64,000 nt of DNA from Chlorobiaceae bacterium (GCA_013334565.1 JAAXXI010000007.1:1-64000), one strand, 5' to 3'. Positions 13,837-59,045 are shown, numbered from the stretch's first letter. The notes: generated from the letters alone by a model not told the origin. Program-made: numbers and translations.

Positions 13837-14652
13837 ATGTCCGTCAAATATGCCATCGAGCTCGGGAGTGTCCAGATAACCCTTCTTCTTCCGCTTTGGG
13901 GTCGCACGTGTGAAACCCTCAAGAAGCATCCGAGGATTGTCGACAGGAAAGCCTGTGAAATCATCACGAAGATCGATTACGATTTTTCGAAAATCGCGGC
14001 GAAGATCAAGTATATATCGCAGCTCGAGTGGATAGCGAGGAGCATCCATATCGACAGGACCATCAAAGAGTACCTTTCCCGTTATCCAAATGCGACGATC
14101 GTCAACGTCGGCTGCGGGCTCGATACTACCTTCGACAGGGTGGATAACGGCCAGCTTGTCTGGTACGATCTCGATCTGCCCGACGTAATCGACCTCCGCA
14201 GGAAATTCATTCCCGAAATCGGCCGTCGGACATTTATTTCAGCTTCATTCCTCGACAAAAGCTGGTTCAGGAGGATACATCCTTCGGAGCATGTGCTTTT
14301 CATGGCTGCGGGAGTACTCTACTATTTTGAGGAGAACGAGGTCAGAGAGATTTTCAATAATCTGTCAGCCTCATTCCCTGAAAGCGAATTCGTGTTCGAC
14401 GCAGCTTCCCCGTTCGGAGTAAAACTGGCCAACAGGAAGATAATCCGCAGCATTGGCCTCGGCGAACAATCCTGCCTCAAGTGGGGGCTTGAAAGGGCAT
14501 CGGATATCGTCAGATGGAACGGCAGTATCGAGGTTGTCGGGGAATATCCCGTCTACAGGGGGATGACGAAGGGGCTGAACCTGAAAGACCGGTATCTTGC
14601 GTTTATTGCCGACAGGCACCGGCTTATGTTCATGGTGCACCTGAAAATGTGA
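13837..14652 (+). CDS. SAM-dependent O-methyltransferase, leucine carboxyl methyltransferase (LCM) family
   Basis: 271 residues. The motif IVNVGCGLDTTFDRVDNG is the SAM-binding signature of the LCM/polyketide O-methyltransferase family, and WYDLDLPDVIDLRRKFI is its typical second strand (YDLD, VIxLR). HVLFMAAGVLYYFEENEV corresponds to the post-II AxGVLxY element. It methylates an unknown small carboxylate or hydroxyl substrate. The gene is isolated. A second LCM-type enzyme is encoded at 55953-56723. Confidence 0.8.
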   Translation: MSVKYAIELGSVQITLLLPLWGRTCETLKKHPRIVDRKACEIITKIDYDFSKIAAKIKYISQLEWIARSIHIDRTIKEYLSRYPNATIVNVGCGLDTTFDRVDNGQLVWYDLDLPDVIDLRRKFIPEIGRRTFISASFLDKSWFRRIHPSEHVLFMAAGVLYYFEENEVREIFNNLSASFPESEFVFDAASPFGVKLANRKIIRSIGLGEQSCLKWGLERASDIVRWNGSIEVVGEYPVYRGMTKGLNLKDRYLAFIADRHRLMFMVHLKM

Positions 14653-55187: not shown

Positions 55188-55691
55188 TTATTCACTGACA
55201 GCGAAATCGGAGAGGTAGGTTTTGATCGACTGGTGCTTACCGAGGTCCAGCTTTTTGTGCAGGCGGTAGCGAATACTTTCCAGCCCTCGTGTCGAGATGC
55301 CGATGGTCTGGGCTATTTCCCTCGTATCCTGGTTGAGCTTTACAAGGTGGAGCACTCTCATTTCGCGCTGGTTGAGCTTCGGGTGTTTTTTCTGAAGCCT
55401 GGAAAGAAATACGGAATCCGCTTCGGTCAGCTCCGCATTGATCATTTTACCGATGGTGTGGCTGTCTATGAGTGTGAGGCATGACTCCTTCATGCTTTTT
55501 TTCGTTGCCTGGTCCAGTTCGAGGCTTTCTATCTGATCAAGAAGTCGTTTAAGCTTGCTTGTCTTCTCAGCAACCGCAGTGGATATCCTGGTAAGTTCCA
55601 TGTCCTTGAAGGTGATCCTTGCCTTGAGATCGGCAACTTCTTTCTCGAGGTCATGGACATTTTTTTTATGAGTCTCTGGATTCGTTTTCAT
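55188..55691 (-). CDS. coiled-coil LuxR-type helix-turn-helix regulator
   Basis: 167 residues. A heptad-rich coiled coil (about 8-65, VHDLEKEVADLKARITFKD and onward) leads to a GerE/LuxR-type DNA-binding domain (about 108-155): LNQREMRVLHLVKLNQDTREIAQTIGISTRGLESIRYRLHKKL, split here as LNQREMRVLHLVKLN and IAQTIGISTRGLESIRYRLHK. The same HTH form ends many Bacteroidetes/Chlorobi TPR or sensor proteins, but no receiver or sensor domain is present here. It probably dimerises through the coil. It follows the methyltransferase gene on the same strand after 261 bases. Confidence 0.8.
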   Translation of the reverse strand: MKTNPETHKKNVHDLEKEVADLKARITFKDMELTRISTAVAEKTSKLKRLLDQIESLELDQATKKSMKESCLTLIDSHTIGKMINAELTEADSVFLSRLQKKHPKLNQREMRVLHLVKLNQDTREIAQTIGISTRGLESIRYRLHKKLDLGKHQSIKTYLSDFAVSE

Positions 55692-55933
55692 ACTGGTTCA
55701 TTTTAATTGCCGCGATATCACTGACAGGAACATCAGGATTGCCGTAATAATTTCACATCAATCGCAATTTTACGAAAAAATTCGGTTATTAACATGATTT
55801 TATTTGTATTTCCTGTTCTGCCTGCTGAAAACACGGTTCCGTTACCAGACATACAGGAGCGGCACATTCATGAGCTGTTCCGGTGCATGACCGCTACTTC
55901 GATCCATCCATCCTTCCTCTCCGGAAAAAGCGG

Positions 55934-55966
55934 TTTATCGATATTTCCGGTATTATTTATCGATAT
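55934..55966. promoter_or_regulatory. two TTTATCGATAT boxes spaced 22 bp
   Basis: TTTATCGATAT occurs at 55934-55944 and 55956-55966; each contains the 8-bp palindrome TATCGATA, and the copies are exactly 22 bases apart, two helical turns. The second overlaps the methyltransferase stop region, and both lie about 245 bases ahead of the LuxR-type gene. They could be operator half sites; no protein can be assigned. Confidence 0.35.
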
Positions 55967-56723
55967 CCGAAAGCGAATAACAGCGGTCAACGGATACTGA
56001 AGGCTCAAATTTCAGTTCATCCTCGCTCCAGCAGGTAACCGATGGGGGGCTTGAACAGTATGCCATGATTTCCGTAAAGACAGCTTCGGGAATATGTCTC
56101 CTTCCTGCATTTACTGACGAAAGAGGCACGAGGTACTCGAAGATGACCGGCGATTCCGGAGCAACGAGTTCCCATAGCTTTCTTGCGCTTTCTTTCTGCA
56201 GGTAATAGGATATTCCTTCGATTACGAGCAGTGTTGGCTCGGCCCTTTTCCATCCAGCAACCGACAGCAGGCGTTCAACCTGACCACAATCGCAGATGTC
56301 GGCAGCGATGCAGTGCAGGCTGCTGTCAGCGGCATAGCGGAGGGCCCTGGTAATTTCCTGTTTTTCCGGCATGCCGTCCCTGTCGAGTTCGAACACATCT
56401 AAACCGGAAAACATCGCGGCGAGCTCGATGCCGAGCATGGAGAAGCCTGCGGCGGGTATGACGACCTGCCTTATCGTTCCGTTCCTCAGCAGCGAAGATG
56501 CAGTTTTTGCGATGCAGGATTTGCGTAACCGGATCACTTTTCCGTACTCCGGCCAGACGGCGTTACATCGCTTCAGAAGTTCTCTGCCGTTGTTCAGGTC
56601 AAGTTTTCGGGAATATTGTTCAACCGCACCGGTCCGGTAGATTTCATGTCCGCACCAGAGCAGGACGAGGGCCGAAGTATCGGCAAGCGGATGTGCCGGG
56701 GAGGTTTCTGTCGGGAGTTGCAC
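55953..56723 (-). CDS. LCM-family SAM-dependent methyltransferase next to the ATP-grasp gene
   Basis: 256 residues. VVIPAAGFSMLGIELAAMF corresponds to motif I of LCM/O-methyltransferases (usually VxLGAGxDxR; the canonical glycines are partly changed to PAAGFS), VFELDRDGMPEKQ is the ExD motif, and TLLVIEGISYYLQKESARKLW is the E-G-x-x-Y-Y-L element of this family. It would methylate a carboxylate or hydroxyl. It lies 126 bases after the ATP-grasp ligase gene on the same strand, so the two may act on one product. The altered motif I could mean divergent cofactor binding. Confidence 0.75.
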   Translation of the reverse strand: MQLPTETSPAHPLADTSALVLLWCGHEIYRTGAVEQYSRKLDLNNGRELLKRCNAVWPEYGKVIRLRKSCIAKTASSLLRNGTIRQVVIPAAGFSMLGIELAAMFSGLDVFELDRDGMPEKQEITRALRYAADSSLHCIAADICDCGQVERLLSVAGWKRAEPTLLVIEGISYYLQKESARKLWELVAPESPVIFEYLVPLSSVNAGRRHIPEAVFTEIMAYCSSPPSVTCWSEDELKFEPSVSVDRCYSLSDIDK

Positions 56724-56848
56724 AGGTGCGTCAAGATTTTACGGTTTGCCCGGAACTCTCCTGTCAGAATTTTATTCCATGACCGGCTTCCGGAGAAGAA
56801 CATTTTTATTATCTGAAACAAGGATCACTGCATACCGGTTTTCAGATT

Positions 56849-58666
56849 TCACTCTGGGTTACTATCTGCTGACGCATGTGTTTTCAGGATTCGGAAGCAT
56901 TCGTCCCAGGAGGAAAATTTGACTACGGACCCACTGCACTCTTCGAGCACAACCACCCATTCATCGATCAAAGGCAAGTCCCCGCATATGCAGGTGCGTT
57001 CGACCCGATCAACAGGAAGTCCGTTCCTCATGATCTGCTCCGGTGTACAGACTGCGATGACTTCAGTCACAAGCCGGTTGATGAGCAATGATAGAATACC
57101 GGGCCATGTTCCGTCACCGCTAATGGAGAGAGGCATGTTTCCGATTTGCGTTTCGAACCCGCAGCAAGTCCATCCGATTCCATCCCGGAAACGATATTGT
57201 CTGAGGTTTTCAGCAGCGGCCCGTATTTCAGGCTCTCCTGCGATGACCAATTGGAATGGTATCCGTCCGACAAGGTTACCAAGGGTTCTGCAGGAAAGTT
57301 CGATAACATTTGCTCCTCCGCATAAAGCGACATCCAGTCCGGGAGTGGAATTAATCTCGATGATCGCACCGCCTTCGCACCAGGGTTTTCCGATATCCTC
57401 TGTGATATAATCGACACCTGCCGTTGAGAGACCCATGGTTTTAGCAATTGTTTCAGCCATTTTTCTGACATCGGGATGCACCAGGCTGCTTACATCGGTA
57501 GCTGATCCACCCGTTGATATGTTGGCGTTGGCCCTCAGGGTTATCTTTTTTTCTGAAGCGGGGATTGTATCAAGTTCCATTCCCTGCTGTGAAAGGTACA
57601 GCAGAAGGGTCTCATCTACAGGAACAGGACAGAGAAACCTGCTTTTGACAAGGTTATCCGTTCTTTCTCTGTTGACGTTCTCGATCAGTTCAAGTATTGT
57701 GCTCTTTCCATCACCTGTTACAAAAGGTGCATTGCGGCGGGTAACGGCCGTCAACTTTCCTCCGATGATTGTCAGCCGGTGATCATAGCCGGGAACAAAT
57801 CTTTCGACCAGCAATGGTCTGTCGGTAACCCCTTTTGTATGATCGAACGCCCTCTCCAGTTCAGACATGTTCCGGATTCCTACGGTGACCCCTTTTCCTT
57901 TCCCTCCGGATATCGGTTTCAGAACACAGGGCCATCCCACCTGTTCTGCAGCTTCTTCAAGTTCTCTTTTATTTCCGGCAAGTCGGGCAGCTGGTGTTGG
58001 AAACCCGAGTTTTTCGAAAACATTTTTTGAAAGGATTTTTGAATGTTGGAATTGGAACCCCAGCACTCCGTCAGCATTTGACGATGATTCGTAGAAAATC
58101 TCGGAGCGGCATCCCCAGCCGAACTGCCAGTACTTTGTTTGCGGGATGAAGGGCAAAAAGGGAATTCCCCTGCTTCGTGCACCCTCCATAAGGATGCATG
58201 CCTGGTAGTCGGGATGGTGCTCTCTGCAGGTCTGCCAGAACGATGCAAGGTCCGGGTCTGCCGCAGAGCGGCAAAATCCTTCATTTAGGCAGGCGTGCTT
58301 CAGGGTGTTCAGTCCAAGCTCGAGAGCATGAATGCTTACTCTGGGATGGTGGTAGCCGATCCAGACCAGAACCCCATCCGGTGATGATGCCGATCCGGTA
58401 TCATGAAGAAACCCCCTGACTTCGTTGAGAGCGCCAAGCGCCCATTGTACAATAGTCGTCCCGATCTGTTCGCCGGGAGGGAGATCGGGAGGAAATTCCG
58501 CAGGAATCCACTCGGGGAAAGCTTCCTGCAGCCGTCGGCATCCCTGCCTGAGGACTTCTCCAGTATAAGGATACTCGCCCGGCAGGTCGATAGCTGCCAC
58601 CACGACGGGTTCCATGGCAAAAGGGCTCGGCCCGGAAAAGGTGATCAGGTGCTTGACGTTCAGCAT
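56849..58666 (-). CDS. ATP-grasp ligase related to cyanophycin synthetase, without a working Mur-ligase half
   Basis: About 605 residues from MLNVKHLITF (TTG nine codons earlier is possible). N-terminal CphA-like domain (1-200, GPSPFAMEPVVVAAIDL, WGCRSEIFYESSSNADGVLG), then an ATP-grasp domain (about 210-440): LKPISGGKGKGVTVGI, LLVERFVPGYDHRLTIIGGKL, VTGDGKSTILELI, IIEINSTPGLDVAL. The remaining 165 residues track the start of the CphA Mur-ligase domain, but the P-loop is replaced (IAGEPEIRAAA) and the rest, about 270 residues, is missing. Full CphA is near 870. It could still ligate one amino acid to a carboxyl group but not build the Asp-Arg polymer by the known two-site route. Confidence 0.85.
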   Translation of the reverse strand: MLNVKHLITFSGPSPFAMEPVVVAAIDLPGEYPYTGEVLRQGCRRLQEAFPEWIPAEFPPDLPPGEQIGTTIVQWALGALNEVRGFLHDTGSASSPDGVLVWIGYHHPRVSIHALELGLNTLKHACLNEGFCRSAADPDLASFWQTCREHHPDYQACILMEGARSRGIPFLPFIPQTKYWQFGWGCRSEIFYESSSNADGVLGFQFQHSKILSKNVFEKLGFPTPAARLAGNKRELEEAAEQVGWPCVLKPISGGKGKGVTVGIRNMSELERAFDHTKGVTDRPLLVERFVPGYDHRLTIIGGKLTAVTRRNAPFVTGDGKSTILELIENVNRERTDNLVKSRFLCPVPVDETLLLYLSQQGMELDTIPASEKKITLRANANISTGGSATDVSSLVHPDVRKMAETIAKTMGLSTAGVDYITEDIGKPWCEGGAIIEINSTPGLDVALCGGANVIELSCRTLGNLVGRIPFQLVIAGEPEIRAAAENLRQYRFRDGIGWTCCGFETQIGNMPLSISGDGTWPGILSLLINRLVTEVIAVCTPEQIMRNGLPVDRVERTCICGDLPLIDEWVVVLEECSGSVVKFSSWDECFRILKTHASADSNPE

Positions 58667-58927
58667 GTGCAGTTCGAATCTTGTTTTTGTCAATCACTCG
58701 ACTGAAAGTCGCAAATCAATTCAGCTGAGAGGTTTGTCGTTTGGAATGAAGCGAGGAATACAATGGAATCCATCTTTTTTTACAAGATAAAAATAAACGG
58801 AATTTTCGCTTCACTCCTTATCACAGGAGTAAACAGTCCGATCCGACAGGGAGATGATACACTGCTATCGCCGGACCAAAAGCAACAGGCCGGCAGGGAG
58901 ATTCGGAAAATGAGCGCGGGACATAAT

Positions 58928-58971: not shown

Positions 58972-59045
<74 letters not shown>

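Follow-up and report, generated by a model that had tools for sequence, protein, structure and literature searches.

A truncated cyanophycin synthetase relative of a green sulfur bacterium as a probable single-site ATP-grasp amide ligase outside cyanophycin metabolism

On the minus strand of the window (the whole stretch of 64,000 nucleotides analysed here), positions 56849-58666 encode an ATP-grasp ligase that belongs to the superfamily of cyanophycin synthetase, the enzyme behind the nitrogen-storage polymer cyanophycin. The ligase is 605 amino acids long from its ATG, or 614 from an alternative upstream TTG start at 58693. On balance, this protein appears to be a stand-alone carboxylate-amine (amide) ligase with a CphA2-like mechanism, which carries out one ligation step of a pathway other than that of cyanophycin. 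It is likely that the protein is not a cyanophycin enzyme, and a single-site ATP-grasp amide ligase mechanism, whose chemistry we infer, is likely as well. The genome carries the gene for the FMO bacteriochlorophyll protein (PF02327, E 5.7e-229), which identifies the host as a green sulfur bacterium. Its assembly (G000) consists of 91 contigs and is 86.8% complete, so the absence of a gene from it is not conclusive. In the preliminary description the feature spanned 55188-58666; the ligase in this range is real, but the range also takes in the genes for a methyltransferase and a LuxR-like protein, neither of which belongs to the feature.

The architecture, an N domain, an ATP-grasp domain and a truncated Mur core, can be regarded as established with high confidence, and it is already known from cyanobacterial CphA2, for which a truncated Mur core has been described (PMC9427784). 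The N domain (residues 1-155; 58202-58666, minus strand) was placed by profile alignment to 7ta5 and 7wac and by the residue table. It is followed by the G (ATP-grasp) domain (residues 156-450; 57317-58201, minus strand) and by a shortened Mur-ligase core (residues 451-605; 56852-57316, minus strand). Residues 3-444 align with positions 2-449 of the 871 positions of the NCBIfam cyanophycin synthetase model PRK14016, at 280.8 bits against a cut-off of 877; with TIGR02068 the score is 255.8 bits against a cut-off of 850, and the protein is thus no CphA1 equivalog. RimK/ATP-grasp models of Pfam match it above their cut-offs, while no Mur-ligase model of Pfam does; these matches, the ATP-binding lysines, the magnesium-binding Glu/Asn residues and the structure place it in the ATP-grasp superfamily. 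An AF2 model of the full protein (pLDDT 87.4, pTM 0.83) matched CphA1 and CphA2 in the PDB, with CphA2 7ta5 as the top full-length match (TM 0.74/0.76). A profile of nine homologues aligned residues 9-554 to residues 16-556 of 7ta5 (E 8.5e-78), the truncated Mur core included, and its score against CphA1 7wac (E 2.2e-77) was level with this. These profile alignments and structure matches bear out the earlier proposal that the protein follows CphA through the N domain and the ATP-grasp domain and then into the beginning of the Mur-ligase domain.

The ligase ends at residue 605, which makes it shorter than CphA1 by about 270 residues, as had been proposed. In the alignment with TeCphA1, the NGKT of the Mur loop (497-500) lies opposite E478-P479-E480-I481, and AGEPEIRAA (residues 476-484; 57215-57241, minus strand) occupies the place of the P-loop GTNGKTTTT, which agrees with the preliminary reading of a lost GTNGKTT-type ATP loop. 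EQIMRNGLPVDRVE (residues 543-556; 56999-57040, minus strand) aligns with the GGILRSGLGFD element, and its interpretation as a degenerate remnant of GGILRxGLxFD therefore holds. The P-loop NGKT, the lid and the C-terminal domain, by which a functional Mur domain is recognised in CphA1, are all missing. By sequence alone, the C-terminus matched nothing in Pfam, nor did its profile match any PDB sequence; because sequence methods are blind to this remnant, a fold comparison was needed. As a control against circularity, residues 446-605 were modelled alone, from an alignment of six relatives whose Mur domain is likewise incomplete. The best PDB matches of this isolated model (pLDDT 81.7) were all CphA1, CphA2 or MurE chains (best E 1.6e-4), and the 160-residue end thus has the Mur core fold. 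Profile comparison links the C-terminus of group 1, to which the ligase belongs, to group 2 at 97.1% and group 2 to CphA1 at 98.0%. The direct comparison of group 1 with CphA1 reaches 55%, which is weak on its own, and that with Bacteroidota CphA2-like sequences reaches 3%, weaker still. The structural matches and the profile chain together remove the concern, raised at the outset, that the C-terminal residues might bear no resemblance to a Mur ligase. The notion of a decayed Mur half is correct in so far as the domain is truncated and its ATP loop is gone; ongoing decay does not fit, as the architecture is known from CphA2 and the clade is conserved.

Six further genomes of the genus contain orthologues (46-92% identity, one genome with a tandem pair), which are patchily distributed there. 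Each of the seven orthologue-bearing genomes holds at least one further family member, G000 holding one. More distant relatives (31-43%) were found in two Comamonadaceae MAGs, one Burkholderiales MAG and one alphaproteobacterial MAG. In a comparison proposed in the preliminary description, orthologues and relatives stop at about the same position as the ligase, the exception being a fused extra domain in one of the Comamonadaceae MAGs (L057). Comparison with the 92% identical orthologue gives a dN/dS of 0.21 overall and 0.19 in the Mur remnant, with purifying selection in all three domains. The incomplete Mur half could also be that of a dying gene, or of a full CphA1 masked by a frameshift, but the shared endpoints and the purifying selection make this hardly credible; no frameshift hides a Mur domain, and the ORF that follows downstream encodes a methyltransferase and not a Mur domain. 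The evidence thus favours repurposing over gene death, as suggested earlier. Synonymous divergence from G241 is uneven (0.44 in the N domain, 0.16 in the G domain and 0.12 in the Mur remnant), a pattern suggestive of intragenic recombination. A search for viral relatives confirmed none, and plasmid records gave just CphA- or Ngg-type partial matches among the matches listed.

Comparison of active-site residues may provide some indication of what the ligase does. Invariance was scored over 12 homologue rows, CphA1 numbering was taken from TeCphA1, and five CphA2 rows were included. K210, K250, E288, R297, E437 and N439 are invariant in all 12 rows, and R309 and N394 of CphA1 are kept as R297 and N382. 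In CphA1, H267, R309, E215 and R458 are catalytic and recognition residues: E215 recognises cyanophycin by contact with its Arg side chain, R458 binds aspartate and R309 is assigned to the acyl phosphate (PMC9427784). In the ligase, H267 is replaced by K256, at a position variable within group 1 (K, G, C, A), E215 by Q205 and R458 by D445, group 1 having mostly Q and mostly D, respectively, at the latter two; the CphA2 rows have E or D at 215 (5/5) and F or Y at 458. The group 1 signature HPD(Y/F)Q, which reads HPDYQ in the ligase, replaces the GPST-type motif. Also missing is the N-domain peptidase motif Cx19HxxEH, which in CphA1 makes primers (PMC9262961). The ATP-grasp site, described earlier as intact, is therefore intact in its ATP and magnesium residues only. 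The charge of D445, opposite to that of R458, might mean that the incoming amine is basic. The reaction would follow the course known from CphA1 and CphA2: in the G domain, a carboxylate would be activated by ATP to an acyl phosphate, R297 would stabilise this intermediate, and the amine would then attack it. Of the two bond-forming sites of cyanophycin synthetase, only this one would remain. The Mur remnant could not bind ATP as an ordinary Mur domain does, and its role is probably confined to packing or oligomerisation.

In the phylogenetic tree, built on the G domain, group 1 and a long Synechococcus branch (L069) are separated from all other rows with support 99/93. CphA2 forms its own branch (100/100), with group 1 outside it, and joins CphA1 (95/80); support is 90/85 for a grouping of group 2 with the CphA1-like proteins found in the genus. 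A constraint that unites the full-length forms in one clade was rejected (p-AU 0.0165, a test weakened by the lack of a known root and by several long branches). This suggests that the Mur half was probably lost more than once.

At the window locus, the tRNA-Gly(gcc) gene (58972-59045, minus strand) lies downstream of trpB, and a group 1 gene is found immediately 3' of it in G000, G241, G040, G165 and G181. The ligase is followed by genes for a SAM methyltransferase (PF04072; 55953-56723, minus strand) and a LuxR/GerE-like protein (55188-55691, minus strand). Since the order trpB, tRNA-Gly, methyltransferase, LuxR is retained in G010 and G362, which have no ligase there, the methyltransferase and LuxR genes are residents of the locus and not partners of the ligase, and an operon comprising the three genes was rejected as evidence. 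The site at the tRNA gene is itself variable: it holds the ligase in five genomes, a cytochrome-like gene before the methyltransferase in G010, and nothing extra in G362. A mobile insertion with a duplicated tRNA end was considered and discarded, as about 9 kb of downstream sequence contains no second tRNA-Gly 3' end. Compared with its homologue in G241, the PF04072 methyltransferase falls about 28 residues short; its frame stops early, close to the C-terminus, possibly through a genuine change or through an error of assembly. A second PF04072 match in the window (14029-14364, plus strand) is present in G241 as well.

Loci that combine several ligases with tailoring enzymes were seen at two places in Comamonadaceae MAGs, and not at the window locus. 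The order in L057 is a CphA1-like gene, a group 1 gene fused to a Methyltransf_11 domain, a group 2 gene and an AMP-binding enzyme gene. In L176 (MAG G397), P450-like, group 2 and CphA1-like genes lie beside a divergent group 1 gene, and this CphA1-like protein is 51% identical to the green sulfur form. The group 2 genes of the genus are accompanied by methyltransferase genes, by a zinc dehydrogenase gene, or by a set comprising radical SAM, glycosyltransferase, phosphorylase and SDR genes; here and elsewhere, P450, glycosyltransferase, sulfotransferase and SDR assignments were made by reading the sequences rather than by search. Several further CphA-like genes were observed. Contig 5 of G000 (L055:5437-8706) carries a second CphA-like ATP-grasp gene (552 aa) right after an AMP-binding enzyme gene. 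A 1067-aa Comamonadaceae protein (L181:4582-7785) appears to be a fusion of an AMP-binding-like N-terminus with a CphA-like ATP-grasp ligase, and a further ATP-grasp gene lies downstream of it. Three loci of the genus (L046:6118-13642, L043 and L152) have a cluster of CphA-like ligase, radical SAM-SPASM, glycosyltransferase-like, PNP_UDP phosphorylase and SDR-like genes, with a second ligase in L046; these genes make up a candidate pathway. In a Burkholderiales MAG (G395, the genome of L056; loci L177-L178, L180 and L183-L185), there are 13 matches to the CphA-like ligase family, an unusual expansion, although a few of them may be fragments of one gene.

The similarity to CphA2 (7ta5 of Gloeothece citriformis; 8fxh/8fxi of Stanieria) raises the question of whether the ligase is a CphA2-type cyanophycin enzyme. 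Both have similar length, an N domain, one ATP-grasp site and a Mur core without P-loop and lid; both lack the N-domain peptidase motif and can have Lys at the H267 position, and CphA2 is the best full-length structural match. Moreover, a published survey of coral-associated Prosthecochloris, green sulfur bacteria that likewise have multiple CphA homologues, took these, on the strength of annotation, as nutrient storage (PMC10158934). The literature on green sulfur bacterial ATP-grasp ligases yielded nothing relevant beyond this remark. However, identity to CphA2 is 24%, the residues at 215 and 458 and the HPDYQ motif depart from those of CphA2, and CphA2 groups with CphA1, apart from group 1. 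Cyanophycinase and the two isoaspartyl dipeptidases, plant-type asparaginase (IaaA) and IadA, were found in none of the 65 genomes of the genus at E 0.001 or better (PF03575, PF01112, TIGR01975), and the 48 genomes that are more than 90% complete agree. In contrast, in another family of the phylum, CphA2-like genes adjoin a cyanophycinase-like gene (L161-L163). CphA1 was sought in G000 and not found, at the completeness given above, and the co-occurrence with cyanophycin synthesis or breakdown genes by which CphA2 is recognised is not seen for the ligase. The pocket residues and the genomic context together argue that it neither makes nor repolymerises cyanophycin, and a CphA2-type enzyme is unlikely. 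Relative to CphA1 (7wac/7wae, 7lg5), the ligase is homologous at residues about 5-551 and shares the G-domain ATP and magnesium residues, but it is without the Mur P-loop, lid and C-terminal domain, H267, E215, R458 and Cx19HxxEH.

A different storage polymer, in which one dipeptide or amino acid unit is repeated and which is degraded by enzymes unrelated to cyanophycinase, would be in keeping with the processive polymerisation typical of CphA-type enzymes and with the retained N domain. We regard it as doubtful, given that the distribution in the genus is patchy and that the homologue clusters resemble tailoring pathways more than storage and retrieval. The ATP-grasp fold is also common to RimK, and theoretically the ligase could modify proteins or ribosomal peptides, by amino acid addition or cross-links, as RimK or graspetide ligases do. 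Its N domain and Mur remnant are of CphA type, however, and no RimK-type equivalog scored above cut-off, which makes such a role quite improbable. N-acetylglutaminylglutamine synthetase (Ngg, TIGR03103) has a related ATP-grasp domain (150.2 bits for the ligase, cut-off 569), but the ligase is without an adjoining asparagine-synthase-like (AsnO-like) partner and falls on a separate branch of the tree; Ngg-type pairs do occur elsewhere in the order.

The amide ligase proposed here would most likely catalyse one step of a small pathway to a peptide or amide, independent of NRPS, in which several CphA-like ligases take part. Its membership in such a multi-ligase pathway is plausible: the support from gene clusters comes from MAGs of other phyla and from paralogues, the window gene itself standing without a biosynthetic partner. 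More tentatively, group 1, the green sulfur CphA1-like proteins, group 2 and the AMP-binding enzymes could form an undescribed NRPS-independent peptide-like route, with cyanophycin synthetases that repeatedly lost their Mur site and were put to new use as ligases of single bonds in both green sulfur bacteria and Burkholderiales.

Such genes carry the annotation cyanophycin synthetase, and the nitrogen-storage reading in green sulfur bacteria (PMC10158934) is doubtful. If they are single-site ligases of other pathways, the storage inference in these bacteria will have to be revised, and the family, for which a structural template has been solved, could be used to look for new amide products. 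Repeated loss of the Mur half would make CphA a natural test of the change from a two-site polymerase to a one-site ligase.
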